In this document: positions 23,040 to 52,710 of the stretch, one piece after another
Layout of the letters: every line of letters starts with the position of its first letter
Position numbering within the stretch: the first letter of the stretch is position 1
Assembly: GCA_015069325.1 (NCBI GenBank)
Contig: SVIV01000004.1
Span: 1 to 53,784, forward strand
DNA from: Clostridiales bacterium
Lineage (GTDB): Bacteria > Bacillota > Clostridia > Christensenellales > UBA1242
Length of the DNA: 53,784 nucleotides
Direction of reading: 5' to 3'
The notes under the pieces: generated by a model
What the model was told of the DNA's origin: nothing
The model's database searches: none
Seen by the model: only the letters and a program-made list of their open reading frames with translations
Position numbers and translations under genes: made by a program

Positions 23040-23104
23040 ACGATTTTTAATGAATAAATATTCATTTTATCGCAAGTATATAACTATACTTTTTTTGATA
23101 TTTT

Positions 23105-23134
23105 TTGACAAGATTTTTTTAAAAACGGTATAAT
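23105..23134 (+). promoter_or_regulatory. Upstream promoter of the giant-protein cassette
   Basis: Consensus TTGACA (23105-23110), 18-bp spacer and TATAAT (23129-23134). It is the first of two consensus promoters in tandem. Confidence 0.65.
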
Positions 23135-23138
23135 TCCC

Positions 23139-23167
23139 TTGACAATTGTATTTATATATTATATAAT
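23139..23167 (+). promoter_or_regulatory. Downstream promoter of the giant-protein cassette
   Basis: Perfect consensus TTGACA (23139-23144), 17-bp spacer and TATAAT (23162-23167). Transcription would start near 23174 and leave a leader of about 178 nt before the 23352 start codon. Confidence 0.8.
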
Positions 23168-23197
23168 ACAAATAAATTAATACTCTTATTAATTAAA

Positions 23198-23335
23198 TCG
23201 GGGCATCTAATAATGATGCTGAACGTCTTACTATAAAGCAAACTAAGTCCCCTTAAACGACTCGTCCGTATTAAAGTGAATTTTTTCTCACACGTGAACA
23301 TATGCACAACTTAAGATTTGCGTTATTAATGCCCC
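23198..23335 (+). ncRNA. Structured 5' leader of the giant-protein cassette
   Basis: The 362-bp gap 22990-23351 holds promoters and this leader. GGGGCAT (about 23200-23206) can pair with ATGCCCC (about 23329-23335), closing a domain of roughly 135 nt. Inside it, GCATC-TAATAAT-GATGC (23203-23219) is a local hairpin, and the GGGG could instead pair with the CCCC at about 23251. These are mutually exclusive pairings, as in a switch. I recognise no known riboswitch or ribozyme class, so the class and function are open. Confidence 0.4.
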
Positions 23336-23351
23336 AATAAAAGGGATAAAG

Positions 23352-24392
23352 ATGGAAAAAGAAAATAAACAAAACGCTATAAGCGAAGAAATAGAAATTA
23401 TAAAAATCGAAAACACAGACTCCACTACTGATGGAGTTATTTTTGATGATAAAAGTAAGAGCAAGAAAAAGAAGCCTAAAAAAGTTTATAAAAAAACAAC
23501 TTTCAAACACAAAATGAAAGTTATGGGAGTGCTCACCTTACTTGGAATGTTTACAGGTTGCGGACTTGGTGTTTGGTATTTCAACACCGCCCTTCAATCT
23601 CCTGACTATGCATCTTTAAACGTCGCAGATTATATCGGTAATGTTGATGATAGTTTTGCTACGATTGGGGTAACAAAAGGAAGCAATTGGGTAGCCGATG
23701 CAAAAAACAAAGGACTAACACCTGCTGACATAGCAGTTGCAGACAATATTTTGCTTTGTGAATACAATGCAATGCAAGCAACTTCTTACTCAATGATTGG
23801 CACAGGTGCAGTTTATTGTATGGGAACAAGCCAATCTGTTTATAGCGCAAGAAAATTTGATGGCAACGCCTACACTTTTGAAAGTTTAAGTAAAGGGATA
23901 CTTACAGTTGCAACTTGCGACCATATGGTAGAAGGTGGCACAACCGTAACTACCTATCAAGGCACTGACCTTACAGACACAGGAGCAACTTGGATTACAC
24001 CTGAAACTGTAAGCACTAACGAATTTCAAGAAACTGTCGGAGTATTACCAAACTCGCTTTCTCCTTACATTATTTCTGAAAAAACTATTGAAGAAGCAAG
24101 CGAAATCAGTTATAATGATGAAACTGGAACTTATTCTTTTACGGTTTCTTTAAAAACTATCGAAAGTGTTCTTTTCTATTACAAGCAAGTAAAACGCAGT
24201 GGCGGACTTGAAGCCAGTCCAGAATTCTATTCAATCCAGATTACTTTTACTATAAATGCTGATTGGGAATTTGTATCGACTGATATTGTTGAAACATACA
24301 AAGCCGTTAAATTTGGGTTGCCAGTTACTTGCGAAGGAACGCTTCTTACAAATTATGTGTTTGACGGCGAAGTTACACTTCCTATAGCCTAA
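23352..24392 (+). CDS. Membrane-anchored 346-aa protein, partner of the giant protein
   Basis: No named family is recognised. A lysine-rich cytosolic tail (1-54) precedes one membrane span (about 55-77, GVLTLLGMFTGCGLGVWYF) and an outside domain of about 270 residues. The C-terminal third alternates strands such as YSIQITFTINADWEFVSTDI and VTCEGTLLTNYVFDGEVTLP, which resembles LolA/LprG-like folds of Gram-positive lipoproteins; that is an inference. A glutamate/serine region precedes it. It is first in the cassette, with an AAAGGG site 5 bp before the ATG, and is followed after 11 bp by the giant gene, so the two are surely co-transcribed. Confidence 0.7.
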   Translation: MEKENKQNAISEEIEIIKIENTDSTTDGVIFDDKSKSKKKKPKKVYKKTTFKHKMKVMGVLTLLGMFTGCGLGVWYFNTALQSPDYASLNVADYIGNVDDSFATIGVTKGSNWVADAKNKGLTPADIAVADNILLCEYNAMQATSYSMIGTGAVYCMGTSQSVYSARKFDGNAYTFESLSKGILTVATCDHMVEGGTTVTTYQGTDLTDTGATWITPETVSTNEFQETVGVLPNSLSPYIISEKTIEEASEISYNDETGTYSFTVSLKTIESVLFYYKQVKRSGGLEASPEFYSIQITFTINADWEFVSTDIVETYKAVKFGLPVTCEGTLLTNYVFDGEVTLPIA

Positions 24393-24403: not shown

Positions 24404-27400
24404 ATGTATAGATTTAGAAAATTTATTAAATATTTGGGTTATTCGTTTGTATATATTTTGATATCATTAGCTTCAACGTATGGAGTTATTAATTTGTCAA
24501 TCTCATATGTCAAAGGAGAAACGCAAACTGGTGCAGGCGGAGCAATCCCCGTCCAAATATCAACAATGGTTGACAATTTTGCATCAGCAAATGCATTAGA
24601 GTTAAACCTTTCCGCATTGATTTCAACGGAAAGCGATAGCTACGATATTAATATCGATGCAATCCTTGACCTTTCACAAGGCTTTGAAAATCTTAACCTT
24701 CAAGGACAAATTGAAGCATTTATCAATTCAAACGCGTTATCTGGCGCTCAACAATTAAATCAGGGAAGTTCATCTGAGCTGGAACCTATAATTATTGATT
24801 TCGCATTTGTTGAGGGAAATATCTATCTTGACGCTTTGGAAGGAAAGATAATGATGCCTACTGACAACTTAATGGAAAGTGTTTCAGGCATTCTCTCTCT
24901 TGCAAATATAAACTTTGACGACTTAGGCGTTGGCGATATACTTAATATGCCACTCAATGATATGCTTGGAATGTTTAGCAACATTAAAGAAGAAATCATT
25001 GATGAAGAAAAAAACATTATAACATTAGTTGTTGCTCTTCCTATGGTAGGCGATGTGAGTTTGATTTTTGATACTGACTACCGCCTTCAAGGGCTATATT
25101 CTAATATGGCAATGGACGGCATTGAAATTGAAATTGATGGCGGAATCAAATATCCAGAAGCTGTAATGGTAGAAGCGAAAAACGAAGATGAATATATCAA
25201 CGCCCACAACCTTTTAGATGTAATTAAACCTGCTTTGAATTTTGCAAACAACACTCAATTTGCTGTTGATATTCAACTTAACAAAGATTCGTCTGAACTT
25301 GCAAACGGAAAATTATATTTAGACTTAGAAAGCAAACAAGCTAAATTCTTAGTTAATGCTTTCGGTCAAGATGTATCTCTTTATTTTATAAACAACGTAA
25401 TTTATATTGAATATCAAAATATTTTTGCAAAATTTGACATTAACGATATTACAAAAGTTCAACAATTCCTTGCAGATAGTTTTGATATCACCCTTCCACA
25501 AGATTCCATTGATATGATTTTAGGCCTTTTAAATGGCGAAAATGTTGCTTTACCTGAAATGAATTTAGACCTTTCATCAATTAGCCTTGCTTTCATAGAA
25601 AATGTTGATGTAGATGGCGATAAAACTATCATCACTTTAAAAGATATCGGCACTATAACTCTTTCTGCACAAGAAGATGACTTGGCTTATTTGGCTTACA
25701 ATGGATTTGGATTTGATATTGAAGCAGATATCGTTAAATTTGAAAATATCAATCTTAGTGAAGAATCTAATTGCTATATTAATCTCGCAACCTTTATTCC
25801 TACAATCGAAAACACTATTGATATTCTTAGACACAATACTTTAGAAGGAAGCATTGAAATTTCTATTGATAATCAACAATACACTATCAATTATACTTAC
25901 GACCACTCTCAAAATATCGCACTTGCAACAACTGAAATATTTGATATTAACTTTACTATTCAATATGCAAATAATTGTGTTTATTTAGATATCGCAGATA
26001 AGTTTAAGTTTGTTGCAGATTGCGACACGGTTATTGAAAACGTGGTAGGTTTTATCCAAAATATAGGTATTGCACTTCCTGAAATTGACCTCACTTCAAT
26101 TATCGAATCTGTATTGACAATATTCGATAAAACTATCAATCCACTTTTAATCACAGGTTTAACAGAAATTGACAACGGCTTTATTATTACACTTTTAAAT
26201 CAATTCGCTTGTCAAGTTGAAAATGGAGAAAGTTCATTAACTCTTTCTACTAGTATTGACAATATTAAATTAACTGCTATCCTAAATGGAACTGAAAATA
26301 AATTGAATGCCGACAATATTGAATATGATGCTTATACAAACGTAACAACAATTCTTGAATTAGCAGAAAAAGTTTATAATAGCGGGCTTCTCAACCTTAT
26401 TTCTCCAGCATTAAACATTGTGGAATCTGATGCAATAGGATTAAACATTAACGCGACAATTGACAATATTACCCTTCCTATCGAAGCAAATATTTCTCTT
26501 GCTAAGAAGAAACTATCTCTTACTACTTCACTTTACGGATTAGATTTTGCTTTATTCTATCAAAAAGAGACCTTCTATGTAGAAGCCGGAAACATTTATA
26601 TATCCTTTGCTCTTACAGATTTTGACAAGTTTGAAACTTTCCTTGCCGACAACTTTAATATAACTCTTCCTAGTGAAATTATTGATATGCTAATCAATGT
26701 TGTTACAGGCAAGCAAATGAATATTAAAGACTTGTTGAAAACTATTGACTTCGACCTTGCTTCAATCGACCTGTCAATCTTTGACAACATTCACGCAAAC
26801 GAAGAAAGTGCTACAATCACTCTTGGGGAAACGATTATTACCCTAAACTATTCCGAAGAATCATTTACAAGTATTGACATTAGCGGAATTATTGATGCAT
26901 CAATTCAATTTGTTGAATATCAAGCAAAATCACTTTCATTAGATAAATCAAATTATATTGATGCTACTGCACTGTTCCCTACTATTCAAAACGTCATTGC
27001 AATTGCAAATGCAGATAAGTTATACGCAAAAGCCATTGTAGTTTTAGATGACGAAAGAATTGAAGCGACCTTAACTTATGATATTGCAAACAAACTTCTT
27101 GCTGCAAACGCACAAGTTTTGGGATATAATGTTGACGTTGCTATGACAGATGATAAAATTTATATTTCAGTTGCAGACAAAGTGAAATTAATGGCTGATA
27201 CCACAGCAATGATAAGCGATCTTCAATCATTCTTGACGGAAATGGACATTGCTATTGAAATGCCTGAAATAGAACAAATTATTACTATCATTACAAACAT
27301 ACTTTCACCTAAAGAAAATCCTTTGCTTATAAAATCATTTAAGCAAACAGCAAATGGCCTTATAGTTAAATTGTTTAACGATTTTACTTTTGCACTAACT

Positions 27401-30400
27401 AATGGCTCAAGCGAAATTGCAGTGAATTCAGCATTTAATAACGGCTCAATATTTATCGCTATAAAAGCAACAAAACAAGAAATTATACTTCCTGAAATTG
27501 TTGAAAGTGAATATATCAACATAAATACTATCCTTAATCTTGTTTCAACTGCTTACAACAAAGGACTTGTCAATTTAATTCAACCTGCAATGAATACTTT
27601 TGCTAGCGGAAATATTGCCCTTGACATTAATATCCTTGTTGGACAATTCAATCTACCTGCTCAATTCTATCTCTCATTTGCAGATAAATCACTTGCTATT
27701 AATTCCAAAATCAACAACATCGATCTTAACATTTTCTATCAAGATGAAATCTTCTTTGTAGAATTTGGCAACCTTTACTTACAATTCGCGCTTGACTCAT
27801 TCGATGAACTTGTTGCTTTCCTTGAAAACAACTTTGGCATTACTCTTCCTAGCGACATTATTGCTACAGCAATTGAATTCATTACTGCTGAAAATATCTC
27901 TATCGAAGATATGATAGACAGCTTTGACTTTAACCTTACTCAAATTGTTAACAGCTTTGACCTTGCTTTCTTTGACAAGATTACTGTAACTGAAAACAAA
28001 GCTACTATCAATCTTGACCGTAATATTATTGAAATTGCATACACTTCTGAAAATCTTGTTAGTATCAAATTCAACGACATTACTGCAGATTTCATTGAAT
28101 TTGAACAAAAGACGCTCTCAACAGATATTACTAATTACATTAACGTTACTTCTTTCTTACCTACTATCCAAAATGTAATGAACATTCTTAAAAGCAATGT
28201 AATCTCTGGTTATATCAATGCGACTATCGAAGAAACAGATTACCAAATCGCTTTCGCTTACTCTCAAGTAGATAACACTGCCCTTGTTTCAACGCAAATT
28301 ATGGGACTTGATATTAACTTCTATCTTGCTAACAACAAAGTATTTGTTAATGTTCAAGATAAATTTAAGCTTGTTGCTAATCTCAATACTTTCATTGATG
28401 ACATATCTTCTTTCCTTACTGAAATGAATATTGAAATGAATGTTGACGCAAATGAAATCTTAGCAGAAGTTGCAAACATTTTAAATCCTGCGCTTAACAC
28501 TCTTCTCATTAAAAACTTTATTGAAAATGAAGATGACCTAACTATTACACTTTTCAATGACATTACTATCCATATTACAAACGATGAAAATGCAATTGTA
28601 GTTGCAAGTGAAATTGAAAATATTCCTGTTGAAATTTCAGTTGGCGCTTCAAATGAAACACTTATTCTCGCCGAAATTGTAGAAAACGAATACATCGATC
28701 TTAACACAATCTTAAATATTGTTTCTACAGCTTACAACAAAGGATTGTTTAATCTTGTTCAACCTGCAATCAATACTTTTGCTAGCGGAGAAATTGCACT
28801 TGACATTAATGTAACTATTGAAAATATGGTTATTCCTGCCGAGCTCAATCTTTCAATTGCAAATAAAACTCTTGCTCTTTCTAGTGAATTTAACAACACT
28901 GCATTCAATTTATTCTATCAAGATGAAACATTCTTCGTTGAATACGGCAACCTTTACTTGCAAGTAGCACTTGACTCTTACACTGAAATTGAAGCGTTCC
29001 TTGCAGAAAACTTCGGTGTTACCCTTCCTAGTGAGCTTATTGGCAAAGCAATTGAATTAATTACTGCTGAAAACATTTCAATTGAAGATATGCTTAACAA
29101 CTTTGACTTCAACTTAACTCAACTCGTAAATAGTTTCGATCTTGCAATCTTCGACTGCATTACAGTAACAGATGACCAAGTTACAATTGGTATAGACGGA
29201 TATAACATTAAAGTTGGATACAACAAAGACAACTTTACTTCTATTAAATTCAGCGACATCTTAAGTGCAAACTTTATTGAATTTAAGGAAACTACCCTTT
29301 CAACAGATAAAGCAAATTACATTGACGTTGTTGCATTCTTGCCTACTATTCAAAATGTAATGAATATTTTAGAAAGTGATGTAATCTCTGGTTCAATCAA
29401 TACTACTATTGAAGACCAAAACATTGAAATTGCTTTCACTTATGACCAAGCAAACTCTACTGCACTTGTTTCAACTCAAGTCCTTGGATTTAATTTAACT
29501 GCTACTCTTCTGGGCAACAAAGTATATGTTAATCTTCACGACAAACTTAAGCTTGCTGCCAATGTAAACACATTTGTTGACGACATTACTGCATTCCTTG
29601 CTGAAATGGATATTGAAATAAATGTTGACGCAAATGAAATCTTAGCAGAAGTTGCAAACATTTTAAATCCTGCACTTAACACTCTTCTCATTAAAAACTT
29701 TATTGAAAATGAAGATGACCTGACCATTACACTTTTCAATGACATTACAATCCATATTACAAACGATGAAAATGCAATTGTAGTTGCAAGTGAAATTGAA
29801 AATATTCCTGTTGAAATTTTAGTTGGAGCAACAACTCAAGAATTAACTCTTCCAGAAATCAACGAAAGTGAATACACAGACCTTAACGTATTATTCAACT
29901 TAATTGCAGCGACTTATGAAAGCGGACTTACAAATCTTCTCGCCCCTGCCCTTAACACACTTTCTTCTGGACAATTAGGTGCAACATTTACATTCGCTTA
30001 TGACGAACTGCAAGTTGAAGGACACCTTTCAATTGACGTCAACACATTAAGCGTAGGAATTAATGTTAATGTTAGAGGAATTGATGTAAACATTATTATT
30101 CTTTCTGACAATGTTGTTTACGTTGAATTTGGAAACTTAAACGTTAAATTCTCACTTAATGACTTAACTGAAATTGGCGACTTACTTGAAAAGCATTTTG
30201 ATATTACAATTCCTTTCGGTGATATTTTAGAAATTATTGATAATTTAAGAACAGGAAATATTGACATAATTGAAATGCTTAAAAAATTCGATATAACAAT
30301 TGACCTTAATGCTATTGACCTTGCTTTCTTTGATACAATTACTAATGAAAACGGAGTTTATTCAATTCCTGTTGAAAATGTAGGCGACTTCACAATTGAA

Positions 30401-33235
30401 GCCGATGAAGAAAATCTTCTTGGATTTGGTTATGAAGGATTTGGAATTAAAGCTATGGGACAATTAAGTCAATATAAAGTATTTGACTTAAAACTTCTTA
30501 AAGAAGAATATGTAAACCTTGTTGATTTCCTTCCTACTATCGACAATATAATTGGAATGATAAACAACGCTTGCTTCAGCGGACAAATTACAATTTATGA
30601 CAGCGAACTTGATTTAAATGTTCCTATCGACTATGTTGTAACAACAGGCGATGAACTTTATGTTAACTTTACTACTAGCATTTACGGAGCTCACTTAAGC
30701 GGACAATATTATAAAGATAAGATTTATCTTGAATTTGCTGAAAGCGTAAAAATTGTAGTTGACGTAACTAAACTTCCTAAAGCAATACAAGAAGTTTTAG
30801 AAAGCGCTGGCAAAAACTTACCACAAAGTGAAACTACTGGTATGCTTGACAACATATTTAATGTGCTTATGAAGGGAGATACAAGTTCACTCGTTTCAAC
30901 TTCTGTGGGACTATTTGATGCGGTTAAATCAGTTTTTGACTCATCTGCAATTGAACAGTTGATCAAATCATTCGCTAAAACACAAAATGGCTTCGCTATG
31001 ACATTATTCAACGATATGCCAATTACCCTTACAAACGGCAATTCACAAGTTGCCCTTGCAACAAGCATTGATAATATTTCAATCAACCTTTCGGTTAAAG
31101 GCTCACAAGATGCAATCACTATTCCTACAATCAAAGACAGCGATTACATTCCTGTTGAAAATCTGTTGGAACTTGTTAAAGCATTCTTAAATATGACTCA
31201 CAAAGACGACTTTAACATTAAAGGAAACCTTGATATTGTCGGCTCTCTTGTTGGAATTAACATCAATATGACTGTTGGATTGGACGCTCAAGTGAAGATT
31301 ACTGATGGAAAAGTTCAATTCCAAGCAGTGTTAGGCGAAATTCCTGCAATCGTAGGCGTAAACAATGACGTTCCTTACAAATTTGGGGATACCGAAAGCG
31401 GAAGCGACAGATATGTTTACCTTTACTTTGATGGCGAAGACTTATATATTTACAGAAGCGAATATGTTGACATCGTGTTTGGAGCGAGCAAACGTCATTA
31501 TGAAAAATGCACAAAGATTAGTGCTGATACTCTTCTTAGTGACATAATGTATTACCTTCAATATATGATTGGATTTACTGATACAATTATGGGCGAAATA
31601 GAAAAAGCAATGACTCTTGCACAAAACAGAGAACAACCTATTGACCTTAACAATGTAGTCAACAATGTAGCTTGCGATGGAAATAGATTTGACCTTTCTC
31701 TCAACCTTAAAGAAATTGCAAACAACCCACTCATGGGCGACCTTGCACTCAACTTACTTCTTAATAAAGATGCCGATCTCAAGAGTTATTTATATCAACT
31801 TGGATTAAACGTTTATATGCCTCTTGCAGATATATTCAAACTCACACTTTCTTCAGATGATATTACTATTGTCAATTATGGTTCTACCGTTGACCTTTCA
31901 AGACTTCAAGATTATGTAACAAACTATAAATATGGTTATGGCGAAGAATGGGAAGCAAGCAATGGCGAATGGGGTAAAGCTGCAGACAAACAATACACTA
32001 TCTACTTTGAAGAAAATGGTGGCGATGAAAAGGCAAACATTACAGGAATTTACGGTGCTCCTATTACCCTTCCAACTTATACAAACTCAATCACAACAGA
32101 TGACGGAATTACGAAAACAGTAGCAACGTTTGATGGCTGGTGGACTACTTCAAACTTCAAAGAAGGGACTAGGTTTACTGATACAACTATGCCAAAACGA
32201 GACATTACTCTTTACGCAAAGTGGAATAAGACAAGCCAATATTACCGCACGATTAAGTTTGTCACTAATTCAACAGATGTCGTAAATAGCATCACTCAAC
32301 TTGAAGGAACTACCGTTGTTGTGCCATATCTTAATACTAAACAAGAAACTGTTGGCGACGAAACAACAACATACTCATTTGGTGGTTGGTATAAAGATTC
32401 TACTTGCACAGAAAAATTTACTGATTATAAGATGCCAAGCCAAAGCATAGTTCTTTACGCAAAATGGGATTTTGTTAAGACTGAAACTACTAAGACATTT
32501 ACTCTCATTCACAACGGAAATACCCTTTACTCTTACAGAATCAAAACTGGCAATGAAATTGACTTGTCTTCAGTAAGTGGAATTACTCTTACAGGTAGCA
32601 AACCAACATTATTCTATACTGACGCGGCAAGAACAAACTTATATACTGGCGACTGGACAATGCCTGAACAAGATTTAACGCTTTATGTTAAAAATGCTTA
32701 TACATTGACTGCTACGAGCAAATTTGGCAATACTGCAACCGCAACATATCATTTATATGAAGGCGATTCTCTCACGCTTCCAACTCAATCTAATTATGTA
32801 AATGATGACGGAAATACAAGAAAAACTTACACTTTCTTAGGTTACAGCGAAAACATTACAAAAATGCCAAGCGAAAACAAAACAGTTTCAGCAAACTGGA
32901 ATGAAGATATTAAGTATTACTACACTATTTCATTTGACACATCACTTAGATATATTCCTAAGTCTTGTGCAGCAGGCTGCACTTATAAAACTGCACCTGG
33001 AAGCATTGCTCCTATGAAATTACTTGAAGGAACTGTAATTGATTTGACTCAAAGTAAATATCAATTAACTTGTCAAGTTTGGTCAACCGCTATTTCGTGG
33101 GGAATTAGTTATAAATACAAATCTACAACTTGGATGACTTCTGTTCCATCAGATTACTCAAATGGTGGAAGCGGACTTAAGTCTTATACAGTGACAGGCA
33201 ACGCAACATTGTATCCTTTCTGGGAAAAACAATAA
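24404..33235 (+). CDS. Giant 2,943-aa exported repeat protein with InlB-like C-terminal repeats
   Basis: One membrane segment (about 10-31, YSFVYILISLASTYGVINL) anchors or exports a huge acidic outside region. From about 265 to 2500 it repeats a module of roughly 200 residues. Each begins with Tyr and an amphipathic helix (FLPTIQN at about 457, 851, 1245, 1639 and 2036, or LxxVSTAYNKGL at about 641, 1037, 1430 and 1824), followed by alternating beta strands ending near a NKVYVxxxDK- or ETFFVExGNLY-type turn. Modules alternate A/B with a period of about 393 residues. The last about 410 residues (2529-2943) are about five InlB/Flg_new-type repeats (GWW, GGWYKD, LYAKW). No LPXTG motif. AAGGAG precedes the ATG. 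Function is unknown; adhesin or envelope-spanning fibre are both possible. Confidence 0.85.
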   Translation: MYRFRKFIKYLGYSFVYILISLASTYGVINLSISYVKGETQTGAGGAIPVQISTMVDNFASANALELNLSALISTESDSYDINIDAILDLSQGFENLNLQGQIEAFINSNALSGAQQLNQGSSSELEPIIIDFAFVEGNIYLDALEGKIMMPTDNLMESVSGILSLANINFDDLGVGDILNMPLNDMLGMFSNIKEEIIDEEKNIITLVVALPMVGDVSLIFDTDYRLQGLYSNMAMDGIEIEIDGGIKYPEAVMVEAKNEDEYINAHNLLDVIKPALNFANNTQFAVDIQLNKDSSELANGKLYLDLESKQAKFLVNAFGQDVSLYFINNVIYIEYQNIFAKFDINDITKVQQFLADSFDITLPQDSIDMILGLLNGENVALPEMNLDLSSISLAFIENVDVDGDKTIITLKDIGTITLSAQEDDLAYLAYNGFGFDIEADIVKFENINLSEESNCYINLATFIPTIENTIDILRHNTLEGSIEISIDNQQYTINYTYDHSQNIALATTEIFDINFTIQYANNCVYLDIADKFKFVADCDTVIENVVGFIQNIGIALPEIDLTSIIESVLTIFDKTINPLLITGLTEIDNGFIITLLNQFACQVENGESSLTLSTSIDNIKLTAILNGTENKLNADNIEYDAYTNVTTILELAEKVYNSGLLNLISPALNIVESDAIGLNINATIDNITLPIEANISLAKKKLSLTTSLYGLDFALFYQKETFYVEAGNIYISFALTDFDKFETFLADNFNITLPSEIIDMLINVVTGKQMNIKDLLKTIDFDLASIDLSIFDNIHANEESATITLGETIITLNYSEESFTSIDISGIIDASIQFVEYQAKSLSLDKSNYIDATALFPTIQNVIAIANADKLYAKAIVVLDDERIEATLTYDIANKLLAANAQVLGYNVDVAMTDDKIYISVADKVKLMADTTAMISDLQSFLTEMDIAIEMPEIEQIITIITNILSPKENPLLIKSFKQTANGLIVKLFNDFTFALTNGSSEIAVNSAFNNGSIFIAIKATKQEIILPEIVESEYININTILNLVSTAYNKGLVNLIQPAMNTFASGNIALDINILVGQFNLPAQFYLSFADKSLAINSKINNIDLNIFYQDEIFFVEFGNLYLQFALDSFDELVAFLENNFGITLPSDIIATAIEFITAENISIEDMIDSFDFNLTQIVNSFDLAFFDKITVTENKATINLDRNIIEIAYTSENLVSIKFNDITADFIEFEQKTLSTDITNYINVTSFLPTIQNVMNILKSNVISGYINATIEETDYQIAFAYSQVDNTALVSTQIMGLDINFYLANNKVFVNVQDKFKLVANLNTFIDDISSFLTEMNIEMNVDANEILAEVANILNPALNTLLIKNFIENEDDLTITLFNDITIHITNDENAIVVASEIENIPVEISVGASNETLILAEIVENEYIDLNTILNIVSTAYNKGLFNLVQPAINTFASGEIALDINVTIENMVIPAELNLSIANKTLALSSEFNNTAFNLFYQDETFFVEYGNLYLQVALDSYTEIEAFLAENFGVTLPSELIGKAIELITAENISIEDMLNNFDFNLTQLVNSFDLAIFDCITVTDDQVTIGIDGYNIKVGYNKDNFTSIKFSDILSANFIEFKETTLSTDKANYIDVVAFLPTIQNVMNILESDVISGSINTTIEDQNIEIAFTYDQANSTALVSTQVLGFNLTATLLGNKVYVNLHDKLKLAANVNTFVDDITAFLAEMDIEINVDANEILAEVANILNPALNTLLIKNFIENEDDLTITLFNDITIHITNDENAIVVASEIENIPVEILVGATTQELTLPEINESEYTDLNVLFNLIAATYESGLTNLLAPALNTLSSGQLGATFTFAYDELQVEGHLSIDVNTLSVGINVNVRGIDVNIIILSDNVVYVEFGNLNVKFSLNDLTEIGDLLEKHFDITIPFGDILEIIDNLRTGNIDIIEMLKKFDITIDLNAIDLAFFDTITNENGVYSIPVENVGDFTIEADEENLLGFGYEGFGIKAMGQLSQYKVFDLKLLKEEYVNLVDFLPTIDNIIGMINNACFSGQITIYDSELDLNVPIDYVVTTGDELYVNFTTSIYGAHLSGQYYKDKIYLEFAESVKIVVDVTKLPKAIQEVLESAGKNLPQSETTGMLDNIFNVLMKGDTSSLVSTSVGLFDAVKSVFDSSAIEQLIKSFAKTQNGFAMTLFNDMPITLTNGNSQVALATSIDNISINLSVKGSQDAITIPTIKDSDYIPVENLLELVKAFLNMTHKDDFNIKGNLDIVGSLVGININMTVGLDAQVKITDGKVQFQAVLGEIPAIVGVNNDVPYKFGDTESGSDRYVYLYFDGEDLYIYRSEYVDIVFGASKRHYEKCTKISADTLLSDIMYYLQYMIGFTDTIMGEIEKAMTLAQNREQPIDLNNVVNNVACDGNRFDLSLNLKEIANNPLMGDLALNLLLNKDADLKSYLYQLGLNVYMPLADIFKLTLSSDDITIVNYGSTVDLSRLQDYVTNYKYGYGEEWEASNGEWGKAADKQYTIYFEENGGDEKANITGIYGAPITLPTYTNSITTDDGITKTVATFDGWWTTSNFKEGTRFTDTTMPKRDITLYAKWNKTSQYYRTIKFVTNSTDVVNSITQLEGTTVVVPYLNTKQETVGDETTTYSFGGWYKDSTCTEKFTDYKMPSQSIVLYAKWDFVKTETTKTFTLIHNGNTLYSYRIKTGNEIDLSSVSGITLTGSKPTLFYTDAARTNLYTGDWTMPEQDLTLYVKNAYTLTATSKFGNTATATYHLYEGDSLTLPTQSNYVNDDGNTRKTYTFLGYSENITKMPSENKTVSANWNEDIKYYYTISFDTSLRYIPKSCAAGCTYKTAPGSIAPMKLLEGTVIDLTQSKYQLTCQVWSTAISWGISYKYKSTTWMTSVPSDYSNGGSGLKSYTVTGNATLYPFWEKQ
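28439..28644 (+). repeat. 206-bp near-identical repeat, copy 1
   Basis: Matches 29621-29826 at an offset of 1,182 bp (exactly 394 codons) with only about five differences counted by eye. It lies in module B-to-A of the giant gene and indicates a recent duplication or gene conversion between modules. Confidence 0.85.
29621..29826 (+). repeat. 206-bp near-identical repeat, copy 2
   Basis: Second copy of 28439-28644. The flanking module sequence is far more diverged, so identity is confined to this block. Confidence 0.85.
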
Positions 33236-39530: not shown

Positions 39531-42500
39531 ATGAAGAAAACTAGAAATATTGGAAAATCATACTTAAAATTAGCGTCATTATGCTTACTTCCTTGTGCTC
39601 TTTTTGTGGGCGGTAGTCTAGCAAAAGCATCATCTAATGCTTATGCTGAAGAAAAATCTTATTCTTACAGCACAGGGTGCACAGAAAATGTAAATGTTAC
39701 AAATCCTTCTTTTGCATCAGGTTCATCTCCTTATGCAACAGGACCTTCTCTCTCTGGCTGGAATGCTGTTGTCTCAGGAAGCAAAGCAAAAGGAATGATT
39801 ATTAATGTGGGCGATTATGTTGAATCTGACGACGGCACAATTGAAAGTGCTACTTTTGCGAAATACAAAAGCACATACCTTCTTGACAGCAACCCAATGA
39901 CTAAAGACAAATCTGACACAAGAATTTTGATGATCAACTCTAAATCATCAAACAAGCAACAGAATGTGCAAGAAAAACAAGGATATCAATCAAGCACTCT
40001 TACGCTTAAAGCTAATTCATATTATGTGTTCAGCGTTTCTGCACTCACAATGCTTAATGGAGACAACTTTGCAGAATGTTCTATCTACCTTTCAGGTCTT
40101 GTAGATGAAAATGGCAAGAAGTTTGACCTAGGATATGAAAAAATCTCTCCAACGTCTTGGACAGATTATTATTTCTTTGTAGCCACAGGCAATCAAGATC
40201 AAGAAGTCAGCCTTCAACTTTATTTGGGAAGTAAAACTACAGCAAGTGAAGGTGTGGCATTGTTTGACGGAACAAGCGCTTATCGTTATAGTGAAAATGA
40301 ATTTTTCAACCTTTGTTATGATGTGCACGGATATAATGCAAGTGCAGATGAAAAGCAAATCTCTGACGGTGAAAAAATCTTTATGATTAAAAAGCTTAAA
40401 TCCGAAGTAAACTCTGTTGAAGATATTGCAACATACAACTTTGACTTTGAATCAACAAGTGCATCTCTTGCTGACAACTGGTCTGTTATTGCCCACCCTA
40501 ACGGGACTGCATCTATTATCAATTATGCAGATTTCGAATCGGTAACTAGCCTTCCTAGAATTGGTAATGACCTTTCTTACAACAATAATAAAGCACTTGT
40601 AATGCAAACTACACAAAATGAATACTCATCTTCGTATATTGGGCTTAAATCAAAACAAATTGAAATCAAACCACACGCATCATATAAAGTAAGTTTAAAA
40701 CTTAAAATTGCTGAAATGGAAAGTGGTTCATTCTTCTTAAAACTTACAGAAAATGATTATATTTATGAAGTATATTCATCTTTAATTAGTGAAGATGAAA
40801 ACGACGACAACTACTTAGCGTTATCAAGTGGAAAAACAAGCGGTTATACTTCAAACACAACTGATCAATGGACAAATGATTATCAAACTGTTGACTTTTA
40901 TGTAAAAGGTCATTCACTTTATACTTCTTTCGTGAATGTCGAGTTATGGCTTGGCGATAAGGATACAAGTGCGGTAGGCTGCGTTGTAATTGATGATATT
41001 AATGTTGAAACTATTGCAGATAGCGAATTAAACAGTGCTAATTGTCTTACACTTAACTCAAATACTACTCAAGGAAGCATTGAAAATTCATCTTTTGACA
41101 CAGCAACAAGCACAAGCAATTCACTTGAATATCCTTTAAACGCTACTGGTTGGACTGCGAATAAAGAAAATGACGTAAAATGCGAAAGTGGTGTTGTTTA
41201 TCTTGATAAAAACACATATGCTGGACTTTCTGACAAAAATATTTATGATACTATGTATGAAGGCAAACATGATTGGGCAGGAATCAACCCAGGAAATAGC
41301 GATAAATCAAACTCACCAGCAAATGTTTATATGATGTTTAATAGACAAAACTCATATCAATCACTTCAATCACCTTATTTCACTTTAAGTGGAAATGAAT
41401 ACTACAAAGTTTCTTTTGACTATTATAATCAGTTGTTTTCAACTACAAATCCATCTCAATTTAAGGTAGAACTTGTTGATGACAACGGAATTACACTTTT
41501 CTCTCAAGACAAAATTCAATCTCTTGACGAATGGAAAAATATGGAAATTTACTTCAAAACTAACTCTTCAAAATCACACAAGATCTATGCAAAAATTTAT
41601 TTTGGAGAACAAGGAAATGAAGTTGGCGGAATGCTTTATTTAGACAATTTTGATTTTGCTTCTTCCACTCAAGAAGATTATGCAAATGCACTTTACTCAA
41701 CAGATACTACAGGTTTTTACACAAAACTTGACTCAAACTTAGATGGAACAAAAGTCGTTTCATCAACTGCTTACTCATTTAGTGCAACTTCTCTTGATTC
41801 AAACTATGCAAATAACGAAGTTGCATTCGGCGGAATTGCTAGCGGAACAAATAATGCTTACGATATTACAAACGAAAAAGATAATCTTTTAGTAGTTACA
41901 ACAACCGCCCCTGCAAAAGCAAGTTTAAAATCTAAGTTTAACCTTGATTTTAAAGCAAACACTTACTACAAACTTACATTTGACCTTGCAACAATCTTCA
42001 ATGAAGGTGCAGACAAAGCAAACTCAGACGAACATACTTGCAACTATGGAGCATCAATCTTACTTGATAATTTTGAAGAGATATCTGGACTTATTTCTGA
42101 TGGTTCTCTCAATAGTTATACAATTTATTTCAAAACAAAGGATATCGATTCTACCCCTACACTTCAATTTATTTTAAATTCTGATTGTGACGAAACTACA
42201 GGAACTGCTGTTCTTACCAACTTAGAACTCACTACTTCAGATGAAGATACTTATGTTTACGCACAAACTCAAGCATCTTTCAACAAATCTGTATTTGCTT
42301 CTGAATATGTTGAACAAGAAGTTGAAGATGAAAAGCCTGATGAAGAACTTCCTGAAGACGAACAAGCACCTGTAGAATCAAATCCTACTACCGGCTGGAT
42401 GGTTGCTTCTGGTCTTATTACAGGAATTGCAGTATTAATTGCAATAATCGGTCTTATTTTCAAAAATGTAAAGATTAAAAAGATTGAAAAAGTTAAATCT

Positions 42501-42854
42501 GAAGCTTATGACAGAAGAATAAACAAAAATCACGAACTTATTATGGCGGAAGCTCAAAAATTACGTGACAACGAACTTCAAGATTTAATTCAAGCAAGGG
42601 ATTCTATTCAAAAGCAAAAAGATGAACTTGAAGCATCTCATAAAGAATATATGAAATCTATAAGAGATGAAAAACAAGGTAAAATCTCTAAAGCTGTTGA
42701 AAAAGAATTTAAAAAATACACTTCAATGGTTGCTACTCTTAATGAAAAAATCAATATCATTAAAGAAAAAATGGACTACACTATGTCTGCAGACCATTTA
42801 ATCGAACTTGAAAGAAAAGTTGTTATGCAACAAGAAGCATCTAAAAAGATTTAA
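39531..42854 (+). CDS. Receptor-like surface protein: jelly-roll-like modules, one span, cytosolic coiled coil
   Basis: This 1,107-aa protein starts with a signal peptide (about 1-37, cut near NAYA-EE). Three or four repeated modules of about 200 residues follow, with starts such as NPSFASGSSPYATG, FDFESTSASLADNW and ENSSFDTATSTSN, each ending in a VALFDG- or VVIDDI-like strand. That pattern resembles CBM4/9-type jelly rolls. A proline/glutamate linker leads to one membrane span (about 955-977) and then a charged, about 130-residue cytosolic coiled coil rich in Glu, Lys and Gln. The order implies an outside-to-inside link. AAAGGA precedes the ATG. No family name is claimed. Confidence 0.75.
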   Translation: MKKTRNIGKSYLKLASLCLLPCALFVGGSLAKASSNAYAEEKSYSYSTGCTENVNVTNPSFASGSSPYATGPSLSGWNAVVSGSKAKGMIINVGDYVESDDGTIESATFAKYKSTYLLDSNPMTKDKSDTRILMINSKSSNKQQNVQEKQGYQSSTLTLKANSYYVFSVSALTMLNGDNFAECSIYLSGLVDENGKKFDLGYEKISPTSWTDYYFFVATGNQDQEVSLQLYLGSKTTASEGVALFDGTSAYRYSENEFFNLCYDVHGYNASADEKQISDGEKIFMIKKLKSEVNSVEDIATYNFDFESTSASLADNWSVIAHPNGTASIINYADFESVTSLPRIGNDLSYNNNKALVMQTTQNEYSSSYIGLKSKQIEIKPHASYKVSLKLKIAEMESGSFFLKLTENDYIYEVYSSLISEDENDDNYLALSSGKTSGYTSNTTDQWTNDYQTVDFYVKGHSLYTSFVNVELWLGDKDTSAVGCVVIDDINVETIADSELNSANCLTLNSNTTQGSIENSSFDTATSTSNSLEYPLNATGWTANKENDVKCESGVVYLDKNTYAGLSDKNIYDTMYEGKHDWAGINPGNSDKSNSPANVYMMFNRQNSYQSLQSPYFTLSGNEYYKVSFDYYNQLFSTTNPSQFKVELVDDNGITLFSQDKIQSLDEWKNMEIYFKTNSSKSHKIYAKIYFGEQGNEVGGMLYLDNFDFASSTQEDYANALYSTDTTGFYTKLDSNLDGTKVVSSTAYSFSATSLDSNYANNEVAFGGIASGTNNAYDITNEKDNLLVVTTTAPAKASLKSKFNLDFKANTYYKLTFDLATIFNEGADKANSDEHTCNYGASILLDNFEEISGLISDGSLNSYTIYFKTKDIDSTPTLQFILNSDCDETTGTAVLTNLELTTSDEDTYVYAQTQASFNKSVFASEYVEQEVEDEKPDEELPEDEQAPVESNPTTGWMVASGLITGIAVLIAIIGLIFKNVKIKKIEKVKSEAYDRRINKNHELIMAEAQKLRDNELQDLIQARDSIQKQKDELEASHKEYMKSIRDEKQGKISKAVEKEFKKYTSMVATLNEKINIIKEKMDYTMSADHLIELERKVVMQQEASKKI

Positions 42855-49668: not shown

Positions 49669-52600
49669 TTAAGCAACATATGCTTTATATGTCAAATAGC
49701 CAGGAGTTTCAGGAGTGTCTACAACTGCGTATGTTTTATTTATATAGGAAGAATTATACACCGTTCCATTTCCACCTACTAAAGATTTACAATTATAAAA
49801 CATTTTCCAACTAGCCCCCAATGTAACCCCTTCTGTATTCCAACCATCTCCAACATATATAGTTTTCAACTTAGAACATTCTTCAAACATGCCTACCATT
49901 GCCGAAGCAGAAGAATTGCCTTTAACATTACTTGTATTAAAGCTACTTAAATCTAACTCTGTTAAACCTGAGCATCCACTAAACATATATATCATAGATG
50001 TAACTTTACTTGTGTTAAAATTAGATAAATCTATGCTTGTCAATTTTGAACAATCTCTAAACATATACGCCATAGCATCTACATTGCTTGTTACAAAAGT
50101 ATCTGAATCTAAACCAATAATTTTTGTTAAACCTAAACATCCGCCAAACATCGAAGACATAGCTGTTACATTTACTGTATTAAATTTGCTTATATCTAAT
50201 TCGGTTAAACTTGAACAGCCGTTAAACATACTTGACATATCAACAACACTACTTGTATCGATGTTCCCCCAATTAATACTTGTCAAACCAGAGCAAAACT
50301 CAAAAAGAGCACTCATATTTGTTACTTTGCTTGTGTTAATTCTTGATAAATCTATACTGGTTAATTTTGAACAACCATAAAACATTCTTGACATATCAAC
50401 AACACTACTTGTATCGATATTCCCCCAATTAATACTTGTCAAACCAGAGCAATACTCAAAAAGAGCACTCATATTTGTAACACCGTCTGTGTGAAAGTTG
50501 TTCAAAACAAGATTGTTCATCGCTGTTCTATATTTAAACAAGTTTAAACAATTATCTATTTCTATATCTCCATTAGACAAGAAATATGCTTGTGTCTTGT
50601 CTGCGTTTATATAACGGTATATCCCTGTTTTCACCTCTGTAATTTCATAGTTTGATGCATTGTTAATTACAGATGACTGATTAAACGAATAATCAAATGT
50701 TATGCTTGTGACGTCTATTGGCAACATTTGTATATTATGTAACCAACTATCTGCAGAAGAAAAATAGCCATCAACTGTTGACGTGTTTATTTTTGCATAT
50801 GTCAAATCTGTGTAATTTGAATCATATTTAAAATCAAGCTCGCCAACTAAATTAGAACAGAGATTAAACATACTGTCTGAAGACTGAACGTTACCAGTAT
50901 CCCAGTTTTCGTTAACAAAAATTGAATACAACTGACGACAACCAGAAAACATAGAACTCATAAATTTTACATTAGAGACATCAAATCCACCAATATCCAA
51001 CACTCTCAATGCTGAACATTGGGCAAACATATAATTCATATTCGTTACTTTTGCTGTATCATAATAGTCAAATCTAGCCCAAACAAAACGGCTACAACCA
51101 TAAAACATAAAACTCATATCCGTCACATTACCTGTGTCAAAGTTATCATACATTGTTCCCAAATTCTGACAATTATAAAACATATATCTCATATTCGTTA
51201 CGTCAGCTGTATCAAAGTTTGTTAAATCTAAACTTCTTAAACTTGAACAATTTCGAAACATAGATTCCATATTTGTCACTTCACCGGTATCAAAGCTCCC
51301 CAAATCTAAGCTTGTTAAACCTGAACAGTTATCAAACATAGAAGACATATTAGTTACTTGAGCGGTATTAAAGCCAGAAACATCTAAGCTTGTTAAACCT
51401 GAACATGTATCAAACATATAAGAAATATTGGTTACTTTAGCCGTATTAAAACCAGAAACATCTAAGCTTGTTAAACCTGAACATGTATCAAACATAGCAG
51501 ACATATTGGTTACTTGAGCCGTATTAAAGCCAGAAACATCTAAGCTTGTTAAACCTGAACATGTATCAAACATATAAGACATATTGGTTACTTTAGCCGT
51601 ATTAAAACCAGAAACATCTAAGCTTGTTAAACCTGAACATGTATCAAACATAGCAGACATATTGGTTACTTGAGCCGTATTAAAGCCAGAAACATCTAAG
51701 CTTGTAAGACTTGAACATGTATTAAACATATAAGACATATTGGTTACTTTAGCCGTATTAAAACCAGAAACATCTAAGCTTGTAAGAGACGAACAATTAC
51801 GAAACATCTGAGACATGTCTGTTACTGAGCTAGTGCTAAAACCACTAACATCTAAACTTGTAAGACTTGAACAATAGCCAAACATACCTGACATATCCGG
51901 CGCTTTACTTGTATCAAAATTACTTACATCTAAACTTGTAAGAGACGAACAACGAAAAAACATAGCTTTAAAACCTTCAATTGTGATATATGAAAGACTT
52001 TTTATTTGACTTGTATTAAAACCGCTTACATCTAATTCCGTTACTTTTTCACAACCAAAAAACATATAACTCATATTCGTTACATTACTTGTATCAAAAG
52101 AAGAAACATCTAAACTTGTAAGAGACGAACAATTATGAAACATATATGACATATCTGTAACATTTGTTGTATCAACGCCTGTTAATTTTAATGTTTGCAA
52201 TGATGAACAGCCCCTAAACATTGAATACATATCTGTAACATTTGTTGTATAAACATTATTGAGTTCGATACGTGTTAAATTTGCATAGTTTGCATTTGTG
52301 GTAGTAGAAAACATATTCCTGCAACTTTTAGGAAACTCAATCTGTGTTGGCGACATAACATAAAGAGACGTGCCTATATGATAAGCATCAATTCCTGCGT
52401 ATCCGTCGTCATCGACTTTGACAGCTGATGCCCCTGCCAAAACATTTTTACCTGTTTCATCTATGTATGATTTATCAAAAACACTGGTATATTTGTCAAA
52501 AATTATTTCAGTAACATCTGAATAATCTTTAAATAGTGAAGTAAATGTTGACTGTGTGATAACAGGCAAATTTGCAGCTTCATAATAAATATTAATATAG

Positions 52601-52710
52601 CCGTTTACACTTCCGCTAGAGAGAGCAAAAATCCCCATCCCCATACAAATGGCAATAAGACTGCAATACAAAAATGTATATATAATTTTTCTTGTTTTTT
52701 CCCATATCAT
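49669..52710 (-). CDS. Large BspA-like surface protein with DUF285 leucine-rich repeats
   Basis: This 1,013-aa protein has one N-terminal hydrophobic signal segment (about 8-30, FLYCSLIAICMGMGIFAL) and then an outside array of about 25-residue DUF285 repeats, SLDVSGFNTSxVTNMSYMFxxCS, from about 140 to 975. The array is interrupted near 610-690 by a non-repeat segment. Repeats near 300-460 alternate two sub-forms at the DNA level (see the repeat feature). BspA-type proteins are known adhesins of anaerobes; here that is a family inference. No LPXTG motif; it ends in PGYLTYKAYVA. Its ATG has no ribosome site but follows an extended -10 by five bases, so the message may be leaderless. Confidence 0.85.
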   Translation of the reverse strand: MIWEKTRKIIYTFLYCSLIAICMGMGIFALSSGSVNGYINIYYEAANLPVITQSTFTSLFKDYSDVTEIIFDKYTSVFDKSYIDETGKNVLAGASAVKVDDDGYAGIDAYHIGTSLYVMSPTQIEFPKSCRNMFSTTTNANYANLTRIELNNVYTTNVTDMYSMFRGCSSLQTLKLTGVDTTNVTDMSYMFHNCSSLTSLDVSSFDTSNVTNMSYMFFGCEKVTELDVSGFNTSQIKSLSYITIEGFKAMFFRCSSLTSLDVSNFDTSKAPDMSGMFGYCSSLTSLDVSGFSTSSVTDMSQMFRNCSSLTSLDVSGFNTAKVTNMSYMFNTCSSLTSLDVSGFNTAQVTNMSAMFDTCSGLTSLDVSGFNTAKVTNMSYMFDTCSGLTSLDVSGFNTAQVTNMSAMFDTCSGLTSLDVSGFNTAKVTNISYMFDTCSGLTSLDVSGFNTAQVTNMSSMFDNCSGLTSLDLGSFDTGEVTNMESMFRNCSSLRSLDLTNFDTADVTNMRYMFYNCQNLGTMYDNFDTGNVTDMSFMFYGCSRFVWARFDYYDTAKVTNMNYMFAQCSALRVLDIGGFDVSNVKFMSSMFSGCRQLYSIFVNENWDTGNVQSSDSMFNLCSNLVGELDFKYDSNYTDLTYAKINTSTVDGYFSSADSWLHNIQMLPIDVTSITFDYSFNQSSVINNASNYEITEVKTGIYRYINADKTQAYFLSNGDIEIDNCLNLFKYRTAMNNLVLNNFHTDGVTNMSALFEYCSGLTSINWGNIDTSSVVDMSRMFYGCSKLTSIDLSRINTSKVTNMSALFEFCSGLTSINWGNIDTSSVVDMSSMFNGCSSLTELDISKFNTVNVTAMSSMFGGCLGLTKIIGLDSDTFVTSNVDAMAYMFRDCSKLTSIDLSNFNTSKVTSMIYMFSGCSGLTELDLSSFNTSNVKGNSSASAMVGMFEECSKLKTIYVGDGWNTEGVTLGASWKMFYNCKSLVGGNGTVYNSSYINKTYAVVDTPETPGYLTYKAYVA
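51330..51790 (-). repeat. 75-bp tandem repeats in a 150-bp higher-order pattern
   Basis: About six 75-bp (25-aa) units alternate between an AKVTNMSYMFDTCSG form and an AQVTNMSAMFDTCSG form, making a 150-bp super-repeat with almost identical DNA. The flanking repeats are much more diverged. Boundaries are approximate. Confidence 0.8.

Follow-up and report, generated by a model that had tools for sequence, protein, structure and literature searches.

A predicted chain of LolA/LppX-fold domains with a same-fold membrane partner in a Clostridiales bacterium

Background

What use could a probably single-membraned gut bacterium have for an exported protein of 2,943 amino acids that is built from repeated domains? 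The question is raised by an open reading frame (ORF) of Clostridiales bacterium (GTDB lineage Bacteria; Bacillota; Clostridia; Christensenellales; UBA1242), located at 24404..33235 on the plus strand of contig SVIV01000004.1 (NCBI GenBank assembly GCA_015069325.1). Positions 1 to 53,784 of this contig, the whole stretch of DNA that was analysed, are called the window below, and the protein is called the giant. An initial annotation, made from the sequence, had described it as an exported protein with one N-terminal membrane span and about eleven alternating modules of ~200 residues, which were guessed to be half-barrels of the LolA/LprG kind.

Transport of lipids across the whole envelope is best known from diderm bacteria. 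The mycobacterial lipid-carrier lipoproteins LppX, LprG and LprF are single domains, each anchored by a lipidated (lipobox) cysteine. MCE proteins have a different fold and form rings in diderm or mycobacterial envelopes, and in the bridge-like lipid transfer proteins repeating beta-groove (RBG) units build one gutter. To our knowledge, the route by which acyl chains cross the wall in fatty-acid-dependent monoderm gut bacteria is an open question. Here we describe the architecture, the predicted fold and the genomic setting of the giant and of a membrane partner encoded directly upstream of it.

Results

The giant begins with a single membrane span (24446..24502, plus strand, residues ~15-33), as the initial annotation had it. 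Residues 1-60 contain no cysteine, so that a lipobox is absent. Residues 204-224, inside module A0, were also flagged by a crude hydropathy scan; we take them for strands. The composition of residues 60-2400 is acidic, with 48% I/L/V/F/Y/A/M and nearly no arginine. In a self-comparison of residues 51-2500 (BLOSUM62, lags 20-1299), the mean score rose sharply to 0.06 at lag 393, the average over the lags being -0.77 with a standard deviation (SD) of 0.07; this agrees with the 393-residue A/B period noted before. Self-BLAST of the giant did not return the repeats; the lag test and hidden Markov models (HMMs) were used instead.

Module HMMs were seeded with the A and B modules of the window and refined in rounds on a set of 23 proteins, 22 of them relatives and one from the window itself. 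These HMMs divide the giant into A0, matched at residues 55-207 with 28 bits only, and five B-A pairs within residues 270-2238. Profile comparison relates A0 to A (98.7% probability) and A to B (99.2%), and it detected a twelfth module, T, which is found in split and fused giants and compares better with A (90%, E 1.7e-6) than with B (57%). Because A0 and T join the five B-A pairs, we count twelve modules of ~200 residues, A0-(B-A)x5-T, instead of the eleven or so described earlier. On the plus strand, A0 occupies 24545..25177 (residues 48-258). The HMM segmentation places B1 at 25175..25756 (258-451), A1 at 25757..26323 (452-640), B2 at 26324..26935 (641-844), A2 at 26936..27502 (845-1033), B3 at 27503..28117 (1034-1238), A3 at 28118..28684 (1239-1427), B4 at 28685..29299 (1428-1632), B5 at 29858..30490 (1819-2029) and A5 at 30491..31129 (2030-2242). 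Module T, at 31142..31771 (2247-2456), is a conserved terminal module that, judged by its sequence profile, is probably LolA-like. The number of HMM-detected modules per giant ranges from 3 to at least 13, depending on the species. Within the array of the window, two stretches of 300 nt each (28333-28632 and 29515-29814), spaced 1,182 nt or one repeat pair apart, are 92% identical in DNA and therefore point to a recent module duplication or gene conversion.

The far end of the giant consists of List_Bact_rpt/Flg_new repeats (PF09479, TIGR02543; 31994..33232, plus strand, residues 2531-2943). The PF09479 match (E 5.4e-13, 49.3 bits against a cut-off of 27) is limited to this C-terminal part. 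About five InlB-like repeats had been announced here; the repeat type is borne out, whereas just two stretches pass alone and the five repeat ends are readable by eye. Some relatives lack these repeats, and the chains of several stop soon after T.

Three joined modules, B4-A4-B5 (residues 1428-2029), were modelled with AlphaFold2 (predicted local distance difference test score, pLDDT, 84.8). In this model, DSSP assigns to every module six strands, a helical lid and five strands, which is the LolA/LprG topology, and the linkers between the modules are predicted to be ordered. Structure comparison was done with VIA, which takes a second look at Foldseek's top 1000; 48 of the 50 PDB entries among the matches listed bear names of the LppX/LprG/LolA/RseB/ependymin type. 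The LolA-fold superfamily (CATH 2.50.20) is defined by an 11-stranded antiparallel sheet with strands 1-6, a lid and strands 7-11 (PMC6363788). As modelled, B4, A4 and B5 are members of this superfamily by topology and structural match. The half-barrels guessed from the strand pattern have thus become a confident three-module prediction. Neither an Ig-like or beta-helix fold nor a strong hit to a characterised sequence family, either of which would have spoken against them, appeared when looked for in the modules; an Ig-like or beta-helix adhesin body is supported neither by the model nor by the structure comparison. Hydrophobic alternation of the strands had also been proposed, and in the modelled strands it exceeds chance: the mean apolar/polar difference was 4.04, compared with 1.94 (SD 0.25) after shuffling residues within strands (31 of 33 strands, two 3-residue strands being dropped). 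Each modelled module has a helical lid to itself, an arrangement that is no less compatible with separate pockets than with a single groove shared by the modules.

Sequence families offer no name for these domains. The modules match no Pfam or NCBIfam family, nor does the partner described below receive a family name. At E 0.05, PF07161 (LppX_LprAFG) matched none of the 53 module rows and none of the 17 partner rows, and at E 1 it did not match the whole giant; LolA-type Pfam families (PF03548 and relatives) are not among the Pfam matches of the giant, the module rows or the partner rows. A DUF3855 hit reached E 1.1e-6 in one of the 53 module rows and was treated as chance, like the weak or isolated Asp, DUF4330, Plant_vir_prot and other one- or two-row hits to modules or partner.

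The membrane partner suspected next door is encoded at 23352..24392 (plus strand, 346 aa), 11 nt upstream of the giant. It is predicted to have a disordered N-terminus, one membrane span (helix 51-80) and a LolA-like ectodomain at ~121-346. In the model of the ectodomain, six strands and a short helix are followed by six strands, two of which comprise just 3-4 residues; the closest folds are LppX, LprG and LprF, and RseB and MucB are also among the structural matches, as they are for the modules. The LolA/LppX fold of modules B4, A4 and B5 and of the partner is predicted with good confidence, and fold and architecture, taken jointly, are very probably as proposed here. The idea that partner and modules are recent duplicates was rejected for lack of profile-level similarity.

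In all 26 loci that hold both genes, and that were picked because both were in view, the partner lies directly 5' of the giant; the genes are at most 72 nt apart or overlap in 23 of them. In the seven further giants of family f1, seen without a partner (L024, L026, L031, L032, L035, L042, L109), the contig ends before the start of the giant. Of the 37 genus genomes scored for both genes, 27 carry the pair and 8 carry neither gene; G031 has only the giant, which runs off the contig, and G023 only a weak membrane-span match.

In other families of the order the two genes are fused. A layout of membrane span, partner-type domain (P) and modules on one chain was found in 8 of the 9 loci examined; in the ninth, L106, P is present and a module was not detected. 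A partner-type profile matched 116 of 396 order genomes, of which 103 were usable; in the remaining 13 (G023, G170, G189, G220, G246, G269, G335, G354, G373, G391, G399, G458, G478) it matched by the membrane-span part only. The frame with the match does not reach 800 aa in any genome of the window's family (0 of 16) or of family f6 (0 of 16), but it does so in 68 of 71 genomes of families f13, f15, f19, f20 and f32 together; the longest frame has 6,238 aa. This gene fusion is good evidence that partner and giant function as a single unit in which P lies closest to the membrane. Fused giants of family f15 (L125:2-18550, at least 6,183 aa; L124:3808-18000, at least 4,731 aa) show one span, a partner-type domain and many modules. 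In family f6, partner-domain relatives occur in short frames of 309-445 aa (16 genomes, such as G206, G222 and G248); these genomes have no module match among the order-wide matches listed.

The module profile matched 85 of 112 genomes of the window's genus, 61 of 396 across the order (in 15 of 142 genera) and 2 of 398 across the phylum, namely the window's own and a marginal one (E 6e-4). The nearest public relatives are metagenome-assembled genomes of Clostridia from deer gut. Transfer of the operon on a mobile element is unlikely, given flanking rplM and minD homologues in 16 and 17 fetched loci.

Upstream of the operon lie two tandem consensus sigma-70 promoters, both 12/12 (23105..23167, plus strand). 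Including the window, 22 of 26 loci carry an 11-12/12 sigma-70 promoter upstream of the partner, against 0-0.1 expected per region in mononucleotide-shuffled upstream regions. The 5' leader of ~180 nt (23172..23351, plus strand) has a predicted fold somewhat better than that of shuffled sequences (z -2.1), although 6 of 200 shuffles were at least as good. Seven relatives, chosen from 14 aligned because a motif is common to them, have leaders that are 58% conserved with three paired elements (L120:6331-6537, L123:11980-12187, L029:13294-13499, L038:12842-13030, L043:2844-3056, L027:4194-4399, L033:11391-11577). Of the 18 base pairs predicted, 2 show changes at both positions, with a small covariation term. 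The element CTCCTTAA could pair with an upstream AAGGGG or alternatively with the ribosome-binding site, which suggests translational control; the leader in these relatives is possibly a cis-regulatory RNA. A search for their hairpin motif found it neither in the window nor in the two relatives closest to it, and the layout in the window is weaker. Known riboswitches were rejected, there being no Rfam match in 23100-23500 of the window up to E 5 or in the loci of six relatives at the gathering cut-off.

The window's own genome (987 kb, 96% complete) contains no Omp85, a search whose control was positive in 7 of 14 genomes. Because Omp85 was not found, the host is taken as single-membraned, which it probably is, and an outer-membrane function of the operon was rejected. 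The ketoacyl synthase PF00109, the condensing enzyme of type II fatty acid synthesis (FASII), was found in none of 112 genus genomes and in 14 of 14 control genomes. FakA-like_C is present in 111 of the 112, clearly so in 106; the five weak matches (G027, G095, G113, G120, G130) lie in roughly DegV-sized frames. PlsY is present in 106. A DegV-family gene, which we take to be FakB-type, lies 3 kb away and has homologues in 11 fetched loci. With PF00109 missing and FakA and PlsY retained by almost every genome, the simplest reading is that these bacteria depend on fatty acids from outside; judged by PF00109, the sole FASII enzyme searched, the genus probably needs them. The trait is common in the order beyond the genus: PF00109 is absent from 65 of 80 genomes checked there, a chosen and non-random set, and the figure for family representatives from elsewhere in the order is 15 of 20.

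Two further large ORFs were seen in the window. A protein of 1,107 aa (39531-42854) has no Pfam (E up to 1) or NCBIfam match and has homologues in 7 fetched loci; its signal-like N-terminus is followed far downstream by a hydrophobic stretch near the C-terminus and then a charged tail. A protein of 1,013 aa (49669-52710) carries PARCEL repeats (TIGR02167, E 5.6e-204, 21 stretches).

Discussion

The best explanation we can offer, although we hold it at slightly less than an even chance, is that LolA/LppX-fold domains form a chain which is anchored in the membrane, faces the outside of the cell and catches, holds or relays lipids. The operon product would be rooted by two membrane spans. The partner, with its span and one LolA-like domain, would form the membrane-proximal unit, and the giant would add the second span, twelve modules and adhesive-type repeats at the far end. 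LolA-type domains are ~4 nm long, and the chain may extend across the cell wall. Each module would hold an acyl chain beneath its lid; lipids or fatty acids captured outside would be kept near the membrane or relayed from module to module towards it, where the partner domain might deliver them for FakA/PlsY-dependent phospholipid synthesis. That the modules bind hydrophobic ligands is rather probable. Lipid acquisition as the main role is plausible and a good deal less secure; the external fatty-acid need makes capture by the giant plausible without proving it. More tentative still is a bucket brigade, in which as many as a dozen or more LolA/LprG-type carriers, covalently joined across the cell wall, hand environmental lipids lid to lid to the LolA-like receiver at the membrane and so feed cells without the FASII condensing enzyme. 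The ligand, the direction of transport, the relay and a continuous groove are points that we infer, and the stiff fibre that the initial annotation offered as an alternative to the groove is a conjecture.

Several observations weigh against this reading. The structural fits are loose (rmsd 4-5), and the match of the partner stands just 2 Z units above the unrelated barrel PcoB. Profile comparison detects no sequence similarity between partner and modules. Amphipathic strands would be expected in a plain packed core too, and LolA folds may serve as enzymes or peptide sensors (VioE, RseB; PMC6363788). No lipid permease or lipase was seen among the neighbours scanned, a part of the ORFs. Pairing is not strict either: a partner match unaccompanied by a module match occurs in G371 and G431, which belong to the window's family, and in G092, one of the genus genomes without a detected giant. 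Among the 112 genus genomes, 27 show no giant, and PF00109 is missing from these as well. Outside the genus, 10 of the 50 genomes with a giant have PF00109, in two cases (G432 and G472) only in unusual 800-aa frames; for comparison, 5 of 20 family representatives have it, with a weak match in G051. These counts do not support a giant that tracks FASII loss; together with the giant-less, synthase-less genus genomes they make synthase loss a common background trait of the order and no correlate of the giant.

The main rival is a passive structural or adhesive stalk, in which the LolA-like modules are stiff, ligand-free spacers that push the List_Bact repeats through the wall to mucin, fibre or cells. 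A giant exported repeat protein with such repeats at its tip would suit this role, as would the ordered linkers of the model and a module number that varies between species in the manner of adhesin stalks. We nevertheless consider it unlikely, though worth keeping in view: some relatives do without List_Bact repeats yet retain T, an apolar strand face and a lid recur in all three modelled modules, and a LolA-like membrane partner adjoins the giant wherever both were seen. Next in rank comes export, by which the chain would take its cargo, be it a lipid, a glycolipid or an acylated protein, outward from the membrane as far as the wall or capsule or into it, comparable to LprG-Rv1410 or LolA-LolCDE. 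The nearest folds are those of LppX, LprG and LprF, and outward movement of triacylglycerides by LprG together with Rv1410 is described in PMC10576003. This direction seems rather improbable, since no exporter was recognised among the neighbours scanned, the genome without Omp85 gives no sign of an outer membrane needing supply, and probable fatty-acid auxotrophy favours an inward need. Ranked last and very improbable is an array of RseB/MucB-like sensors, whose modules would bind lipids, peptides or misfolded proteins and pass a signal across the membrane by way of the spans. RseB and MucB among the structural matches and the single N-terminal span of both proteins fit such sensing, but the cytoplasmic tail of the giant has only ~14 residues and that of the partner is predicted to be disordered, with no Pfam domain above cut-off.

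Compared with known systems, a lipid-handling chain of LolA/LppX-fold domains would combine familiar parts in a different order. The modelled modules are predicted to have a fold akin to LppX, LprG and LprF, with no PF07161 match, but the giant sets twelve domains in tandem on a membrane span, together with a partner, and has no lipobox cysteine. LolA, which is soluble and has one domain, and the lipoprotein LolB share the fold superfamily and serve an outer membrane, whereas the giant would be a chain rather than a shuttle, in a host without Omp85. Bridge-like lipid transfer proteins (VPS13/ATG2; TamB/AsmA-type) resemble it in length, many repeats and hydrophobic alternating strands and may do the same job, yet the modelled modules are individual half-barrels, every one of which has a separate set of strands and a lid; bridge-like families were not among the fold-list matches, an absence that excludes nothing. 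MCE/LetB-type tunnels likewise place repeated lipid-handling domains across the envelope, as proposed for the giant. Gram-positive InlB-like/List_Bact surface proteins carry the same repeats at the C-terminal tip, while the modelled body of the giant is a LolA-fold array and neither Ig-like nor beta-helical. In full-text searches, which included PMC13078400 and covered few subscription journals and preprints, we found no description of a tandem LolA-type array with a same-fold membrane partner. As far as these searches go, the fold is known and the arrangement is apparently undescribed.

Conclusions

LolA-type domains are seen here, as modelled, in the form of tandem repeats. A chain of them might give bacteria with a single membrane a novel means of catching lipids or handing them on, and the chain and its same-fold partner are a concrete candidate for the route of acyl chains across the monoderm wall. 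If lipids are indeed relayed along it, the chain would, as far as is known, be the first structure to do across a cell wall what transenvelope lipid bridges do in diderms.
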